A stretch of 64,000 bases of DNA. It comes from Asanoa iriomotensis. Lineage in GTDB: Bacteria; Actinomycetota; Actinomycetes; Mycobacteriales; Micromonosporaceae. Shown in pieces: positions 51,335 to 51,898 of this stretch. Numbering within the stretch: the stretch's first letter is position 1; each line of letters opens with the position of its first letter. The position numbers and the translations under genes were made by a program. The notes under the pieces are model-generated. The model was not told the origin of the DNA. It saw only the letters and a list, made by a program, of their open reading frames with translations, and ran no database searches. The DNA is taken from positions 124,001 to 188,000 of the forward strand of contig NZ_BONC01000002.1 in the NCBI RefSeq assembly GCF_016862515.1. Direction: 5' to 3'.

Positions 51335-51366
51335 CGCTCTTGACCCGACCGGCTATCGTTTTGGAC

Positions 51367-51381
51367 ATGCCGCACTACTAG
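51367..51381 (+). other. Possible five-codon leader ORF ending in amber
   Basis: ATGCCGCACTACTAG would encode Met-Pro-His-Tyr and stop at UAG. TATCGT (51354-51359) lies 7 bp upstream of its ATG, so it could start a leaderless transcript. It is in frame with the GTG of the next gene, 102 bp downstream, with no other stop between. This may be chance in GC-rich DNA. Confidence 0.3.
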
Positions 51382-51430
51382 GTCCGACAACGGCTGCTTC
51401 TGGTCATTCGTGCTGCCGGGCGGACACCTC

Positions 51431-51460
51431 CACCTCTCCCTCGAACGAAGAGGGGAGGTG
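51431..51460 (+). promoter_or_regulatory. Stem-loop covering the ribosome site of the small gene
   Basis: CACCTCTCCCTC (51431-51442) pairs with GAGGGGAGGTG (51450-51460), with one bulged base and a 7-base loop. The right arm contains the GGAGG ribosome site for GTG 51469, so the fold would hide it and could make translation conditional. Confidence 0.55.
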
Positions 51461-51468
51461 AAGAAGAA

Positions 51469-51732
51469 GTGACTCAGACCACCGATCTGCGTGCGGAGCT
51501 CGTCGAGCTCCGCGCCGAACGGGACGCGCTCAAGGCGCAGCTCGCCGGTGAGCTGCCCCAGGCCACCCGCTGGCTGCAGCAGAAGGTCTGGCGGCAAGCC
51601 GCGGCCCTGACCCTGCTGAACCAGCGCGTGGTCAACCAGCGGCTCGTCCTCCGCACGCTGGACCAGCTCGGCCGCTCGCTGAGCCCCGCCGAGTTCCAGG
51701 CCGCGACCAAGTCCGACGCCCAGGCGTCCTGA
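51469..51732 (+). CDS. Small coiled-coil protein of unknown function
   Basis: An 87-residue protein. The first 30 residues (TDLRAELVELRAERDALKAQ) have a heptad pattern typical of a short coiled coil; a second helix-prone half reads ALTLLNQRVVNQRLVLRTLD. No signal peptide, membrane segment or cysteine is present. I do not recognise the family. The start is GTG 51469, with GGAGG about 11 bp upstream inside a stem-loop. It lies between pcrA and a tRNA-like gene, and the 48-bp gap to that gene shows no promoter, so the two may share a transcript. Confidence 0.7.
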   Translation: MTQTTDLRAELVELRAERDALKAQLAGELPQATRWLQQKVWRQAAALTLLNQRVVNQRLVLRTLDQLGRSLSPAEFQAATKSDAQAS

Positions 51733-51780
51733 CCAGGCGGGGGTGGGCGCCCCACTCGGGACGCTCGCCCCCGTGCCCGA

Positions 51781-51852
51781 GCCCCAGAAGCCCAACGGCC
51801 GGGCAGCCGCCTCTAAAGCGGCCATCAGCGGGTTCGACTCCCGCCTGGGGCG
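51781..51852 (+). tRNA. tRNA with anticodon CUA (amber-reading)
   Basis: All four cloverleaf stems pair perfectly: acceptor GCCCCAG/CTGGGGC (51781-51787 with 51845-51851), D-stem GCCC/GGGC (51790-51793 with 51801-51804), anticodon stem GCCGC/GCGGC (51806-51810 with 51818-51822) and T-stem GCGGG/CCCGC (51828-51832 with 51840-51844). The anticodon loop is CTCTAAA, with U33, anticodon CUA (51813-51815) and purine 37. The T-loop TTCGACT fits TTCRANY. The variable loop has 5 bases, the D-loop has GG, and the discriminator would be G. Oddities are A instead of T at position 8, C at 21, and no encoded CCA. It is not a tRNA-Pyl or tRNA-Sec shape. The amino acid cannot be told. A strong terminator follows within 10 bp. 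Confidence 0.7.
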
Positions 51853-51860
51853 CGAAGACG

Positions 51861-51898
51861 ACGATGGGTCCGGCTCCCGAAGGAGCCGGACCCATCGT
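51861..51898. terminator. Terminator after the tRNA and after the first M23 gene
   Basis: ACGATGGGTCCGGCTCC and GGAGCCGGACCCATCGT form a perfect 17-bp stem closed by a CGAA loop, with TTTCC on the plus strand. It should end the tRNA transcript, and from the other side the M23 gene. Confidence 0.85.

Follow-up and report, generated by a model that had tools for sequence, protein, structure and literature searches.

A tRNA with anticodon CUA as a probable dedicated suppressor of a stop codon at the start of its PTH2-like partner gene in actinobacteria and phages

What does a tRNA that pairs with UAG do in a bacterium that itself uses TAG as a stop codon? Such a tRNA gene, with anticodon CUA, lies in the stretch of Asanoa iriomotensis DNA analysed here (64,000 nucleotides, hereafter the window). 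ARAGORN made a single tRNA call in the window (51781-51853, + strand, anticodon cta); its label, tRNA-Pyl, was taken from the anticodon. The Rfam model RF00005 matched at 51781-51852 with 54.9 bits, well over the gathering score of 29 (E 4.4e-9), and this score ranked 51st of 68 matches within the genome. All four stems were paired throughout and the anticodon loop was CUCUAAA, which bore out what an initial sequence-only reading had described. When 16 relatives (15 distinct) were aligned, 99.4% of the stem cells paired and five pairs had changed on both sides. None of 500 shuffles of the alignment reached four of the five measures used, and 339 of 500 reached the fifth, the number of further pair types; the rows are related, and these counts are not to be read as probabilities. 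The stem pairing, the two-sided changes and the shuffle results place the signal beyond chance. The tRNA-CUA of the window is a genuine gene.

tRNA-Sec has an elongated acceptor/T branch plus a long variable arm, and tRNA-Pyl is compact, with a small D loop and a 3-nt variable region. The tRNA-CUA differs from both, as the sequence-only reading had held: its 7-bp acceptor stem, 5-bp T stem and 5-nt variable region set it apart from tRNA-Sec, and its standard cloverleaf with a 7-nt D loop and the same variable region sets it apart from tRNA-Pyl. That reading had also taken A8 as a possible mark of a decaying or specialised tRNA. Because none of the 16 aligned tRNAs carried U8, A8 is a family trait and not damage to the window copy; with the stems intact, specialisation gained support and simple decay lost it. 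The point that general suppression would be costly holds as well, since 11 of the 58 called genes in the window terminate with TAG. An isotype was sought among the tRNAs of the same genome, but the best of 75 distinct ARAGORN calls was identical at 50 of 72 positions, too weak a match to name the amino acid. An origin from a tRNA array was rejected, the array tRNAs of the genome being no closer. The genome has two tRNA-rich stretches (L066, G000:C12:80700-82500; L067, G000:C57:44500-49600), and an array of 19 tRNAs was seen in genome G035 (L008); tRNA-Leu calls from these places, about 74-78 nt in size, have a variable arm that is short.

A DNA search of 61 relatives yielded further copies of the tRNA. 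The anticodon was CUA wherever ARAGORN still detected a tRNA of this kind (L002-L005), and two copies (L006, L010) were decayed. The tRNA belongs to a cassette, scattered among actinobacteria and seen in copies at varied genomic sites, in which a PTH2-like gene with TAG at codon 5 is followed by a gene of 87-101 aa and then by tRNA-CUA. The PTH2-like frame opens with ATG, three codons and TAG; we refer to this opening stop and its start codon as the gate. In most cassettes the PTH2 stop overlaps the start of the next gene. A scan with the 87-aa small protein as query recovered 17 loci in Asanoa, Nocardia, Actinomadura, Virgisporangium, Streptosporangiaceae and one Micromonosporaceae MAG. Sixteen of the 17 carried the codon-5 TAG, and the one locus without it, L035, has decayed in both gate and tRNA. 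ARAGORN found a cta tRNA in 15 of the 17, and in L032, where a contig end cuts the tRNA, the CTCTAAA loop is still visible. Three further genomes (L092, L094, L095) had both the codon-5 TAG and tRNA-CUA. Every bacterial cassette with an otherwise open PTH2 frame carried the TAG (19/19). In L096 the gated start was kept, the frame was broken and no tRNA was found. In two Nocardia loci (L021, L030), codon 8 of the small gene was an extra in-frame TAG; L022 and L032 have Gln there. In all 17 bacterial copies checked, the window included, a TANNNT motif ended 6-7 nt upstream of the start codon; the mRNA is therefore probably leaderless.

The cassette was rare and patchy: within the family, 11 of 354 genomes carried it, from 6 of 44 genera. 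A survey of the class with the PTH2 profile gave a hit in 1 of 394 genomes (L098), which was weak and had no tRNA in the locus, and plasmids held no match to the PTH2-like protein. The decayed copies outside the window (L035, L096 and a remnant in L016) suggest repeated loss of the cassette. One intact cassette (L012, genome G010) lies at an unrelated genomic site.

In the window most of the PTH2-like gene is deleted, leaving a remnant at 51367-51468, so the partner gene was invisible from the window alone (Table 1). The earlier suggestion that the tRNA might be used outside ordinary translation thus finds no support, its evident target being the UAG near the start of the cassette partner gene. 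No match to the PTH2 profile was found elsewhere in the genome at E ≤ 1e-4. The 87-aa protein matched no Pfam family, and its gene is constrained in comparison with Asanoa siamensis (dN 0.126, dS 0.586). Each of the 16 spacers folded (the window and 15 relatives) was predicted to form a strong hairpin downstream of the 87-aa gene and ahead of the tRNA; it is a candidate attenuator, processing site or terminator. Because the PTH2 body is lost, yet the 87-aa gene is constrained and the tRNA intact, the gated product of the window may now be the small protein, or decay of the cassette may have begun. Read-through here would give an N-extended version of the 87-aa protein.

Table 1. Features of the cassette in the window (positions are those of the 64,000-nucleotide stretch).
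Feature	Position	Strand	Basis
Candidate -10 box TATCGT, 7 nt 5' of the ATG; suggests a leaderless mRNA	51354..51359	+	TANNNT comparison
Gated start ATG-CCG-CAC-TAC-TAG; codon 5 is an in-frame amber	51367..51381	+	matches 19 intact bacterial cassettes
Remnant of PTH2-like gene, body deleted, frame open into the next gene	51382..51468	+	translation MPHY-stop-VRQRLLLVIRA...
Conserved 87-aa protein, probably helical	51469..51732	+	alignment of 17 copies
Spacer between 87-aa gene and tRNA, with strong predicted hairpin	51733..51780	+	fold -33.7 kcal/mol
tRNA, anticodon CUA (pairs with UAG), without encoded CCA	51781..51852	+	ARAGORN, Rfam, alignment of relatives
Hairpin of 16 bp, probable terminator 3' of the tRNA	51862..51897	+	read from sequence

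The PTH2-like protein matched 218 phage records, 193 of them from Mycobacterium phages; the 87-aa protein had no match in phages. In ScoobyDoobyDoo and Cane17, tRNA-CUA lies directly 3' of the PTH2-like gene. In mycobacteriophages the annotated starts fall just past GTG-TAG or ATG-TAG, which itself lies 6-7 nt after a -10-like box. Among the 26 phage records inspected for the gate, 20 had it, including the jumbo phages BF, GAP32, CBB, ME3 and pT24 and Salmonella phage Arash, and six did not (LR745208, RAS14, XacN1, RaK2, Mx1 and Hallingskeid). In RAS14, XacN1 and Hallingskeid (L124, L303, L307) the PTH2-like domain forms the C-terminus of a larger protein that has no gate; the fused, ungated gene of XacN1 is ORF364. 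A cta tRNA was found in the whole-record stretches of BF, GAP32, pT24 and LR756511, and no suppressor tRNA in the partial stretches of LR745206 and LR756504. Viral contigs contributed at least 164 loci, one scan (A7) giving its best 80 of 167. A blind test on phage DLP_5, a relative of Summit, found tRNA-CUA and no PTH2-like frame; its positive controls came from the training set. Annotation pipelines lose or shorten the gated gene, as seen in three phages (L119, L120, L305): no feature is annotated over it in Erwinia phage SNUABM_19 or Serratia phage BF, and the Arash annotation covers only a 51-codon stub that begins at an internal Met. The bacterial copies nest among the phage copies in the tree, and the cassette of bacteria resembles a phage module that they have captured.

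Suppressor tRNAs, which are common in large phages, and the PTH2-like gene have each been reported from phages: two CUA tRNAs in XacN1 (PMC5852040), a UCA suppressor tRNA in Atu_ph07 (PMC6102473), and a PTH2-like gene in about 96% of the tRNA arrays carried by cluster C mycobacteriophages (PMC5966550). For the suppressor tRNAs of XacN1 (PMC5852040) and Summit (PMC9022506), the accessible passages report no target.

The gate codon was compared with nearby anticodons in 205 usable loci, 151 after deduplication at 90%, with tRNAs counted within 2.6 kb; four loci had been left out before this count, three in which the motif was not found (L165, L213, L241) and one at a contig end (L281). Of the 116 loci gated by TAG, 93 had tRNA-CUA within 2.6 kb, 23 had no stop-reading tRNA there and none had UCA alone. 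All four loci gated by TGA had tRNA-UCA nearby and none had CUA. The probability of this 93/0/0/4 table is 1 in 3,464,840, calculated by hand and ignoring relatedness. Seven loci were ambiguous, including L184, in which a TGA precedes a later ATG and a CUA tRNA is nearby. The remaining 24 were called ungated: 15 without a stop tRNA, five with CUA, of which L269 is actually gated, and four with UUA. Gate and suppressor tRNA are thus not always paired. The four PTH2-like genes with a UUA tRNA nearby are L101, L105, L273 and L300; in two cases the tRNA measures 91-92 nt.

A tree of 150 rows placed at least three switches to the TGA label (L117, L179 and L115+L156), each beside TAG-gated kin and each with UCA as the nearby anticodon; the branches concerned were well supported in a tree whose bootstrap had not settled. 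The gate lay at codon 3 in 60 of the 120 gated loci, at codon 5 in 26, codon 4 in 21, codon 2 in 11, and codons 8 and 9 in one each. A start codon within eight codons before the opening stop was present in 81 of 90 PTH2 frames; among the remaining long frames in phage and viral loci, which served as the control, 145 of 879 had one (a usable PTH2 frame was available for 90 of the 132 non-bacterial loci; the host control had only two such frames and was not used). In-frame stops inside the domain occurred in 5 of 151 loci, all TAG and all near a cta tRNA. The bodies of the suppressor tRNAs differed widely between phages, so the anticodon rather than the amino acid seems to be kept. Comparison of these sequences shows that the gate is conserved, that it matches the anticodon and that the two have switched together independently. 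Because a start-proximal stop is kept over great distances and matched to a nearby anticodon, we infer that the tRNA decodes the gate in cells. Very probably, then, the tRNA is a dedicated nonsense suppressor that reads the stop at its partner gene's start, the cassette forming a self-decoding translational gate. Against this reading stand the ungated loci near CUA or UUA tRNAs, the 23 TAG-gated loci with no stop-reading tRNA nearby, L184, phage DLP_5, and XacN1, whose gene is ungated despite the two reported CUA tRNAs.

The partner itself belongs to the family of the PTH2 peptidyl-tRNA hydrolases by sequence: two of three cassette proteins passed the Pfam model PF01981 (31.4 and 25.5 bits, cut-off 23), and that of L013 scored 14.9. 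An AlphaFold model built from 30 rows was confident and of the size expected for that family (pLDDT 92.0, pTM 0.84); an earlier model had been poor (pLDDT 59.6). The catalytic Lys of PTH2 lies in the loop following the first strand. This loop is not conserved in the cassette protein, in which bit1 DLKMGKGK aligned with DLppg--tq of the profile, and here the protein departs from the known hydrolases. Tentatively, we suggest that it acts on peptidyl- or aminoacyl-suppressor tRNA and so closes a negative feedback on suppression.

Intact cassettes would probably produce a leaderless mRNA beginning AUG-xxx-xxx-xxx-UAG. When charged suppressor tRNA is absent, the ribosome would release a tetrapeptide; when it is present, the PTH2-like protein would be made. 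By removing peptidyl- or aminoacyl-suppressor tRNA, this protein could keep suppression low, at a level tolerable for hosts in which TAG still terminates many genes. On a wider scale, the cassette may be a widespread phage circuit captured by actinobacteria, in which the tRNA licenses its PTH2-like partner and the partner meters suppression in a closed loop. We hold this circuit with reserve; for the role of the partner, feedback on the suppressor tRNA is the favoured reading, closely followed by release-factor sensing and then by a conflict module.

In release-factor sensing, as in prfB, the tRNA would compete with RF1 at UAG or RF2 at UGA, and the protein would be made when termination is weak. 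The gate adjoins the start, and T directly followed it in none of the 120 gated loci; T after a stop is a context described in PMC5289835 as favouring termination. The same avoidance of T also counts for the reading as a dedicated suppressor. We regard such a sensor as possible, if somewhat unlikely. A phage-host conflict or addiction module, serving defence, counter-defence or toxin-antitoxin functions, would fit the patchy distribution and the nesting of bacterial among phage copies, but five proteins had no match among the PADLOC families at E ≤ 0.1 and no partner of a known defence type was seen, which makes it the less likely of the two.

Other explanations deny the tRNA a role at the gate or give it a general one. 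If the TAG were the true stop of a tiny leader ORF regulating re-initiation downstream, the tRNA being unrelated, a further start should follow. In 33 of 120 gated loci some ATG, GTG or TTG does occur after the gate and ahead of the conserved R-x-D motif, the start annotated in mycobacteriophage records is a GTG right after the TAG, and a start before an opening stop is not rare in itself, as the control frames show; however, 87 of 120 gated loci have no such codon available, the gate stop switches together with the anticodon, and internal stops are of the same type as the gate. This makes a leader ORF highly improbable. A decaying, non-functional tRNA is only a little easier to accept: decayed copies are known (L035/L097, L096, the remnant in G004) and the window has lost the PTH2 body, but the stems are intact with compensatory changes among relatives, and the 87-aa gene is constrained. 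Least credible of all is genome-wide recoding of UAG, or a special amino acid of the Pyl or Sec kind. The ARAGORN label speaks for it and is based on the anticodon; against it stand the TAG-terminated genes of the window, which was the only stretch counted for recoding of the code 15 type, the very different tRNA bodies across phages, and cassettes without a synthetase gene in the loci listed.

That a tRNA can read a stop codon is known in principle. If the reading as a dedicated suppressor is true, the cassette would be a natural case of gene-specific stop-codon decoding in which codon and anticodon evolve together, and many suppressor tRNAs of large phages would gain a concrete target. It also raises the question of what the PTH2-like protein does for, or against, the suppressor tRNA. 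In the accessible parts of the open-licence literature we found no description of this start-proximal gate, and the system did not pass the tests that define each of the known kinds compared with it.

The bldA tRNA of Streptomyces reads the rare sense codon UUA in many genes. As with bldA, one tRNA would decide the translation of particular genes; unlike bldA, the codon in the cassette is a stop and stands in the tRNA's own neighbour. The prfB frameshift, as outlined in PMC12421855, resembles the gate in three respects: translation has to get past an in-frame stop close to the start, the gene is translation-factor-like, and control is likely autogenous. However, prfB uses a frameshift, has no dedicated tRNA and yields RF2, whereas the frame of the cassette is the same on both sides of the stop and the product is PTH2-like. 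In alternative-code phages a phage suppressor tRNA likewise decodes TAG or TGA; according to the passages available of PMC13037316, many genes are recoded there, whereas in the cassette a single gene carries one stop at its start, and the hosts retain TAG for termination. The PTH2-like gene of the cluster C mycobacteriophage arrays is the same gene, and the passages on it in PMC5966550 mention neither the upstream stop nor a suppressor tRNA. Closest in logic is an engineered feed-forward loop in which a suppressor tRNA licenses a stop-bearing gene; that loop, as presented in PMC7969014, is synthetic, whereas the cassette is natural and occurs in both phages and bacteria.
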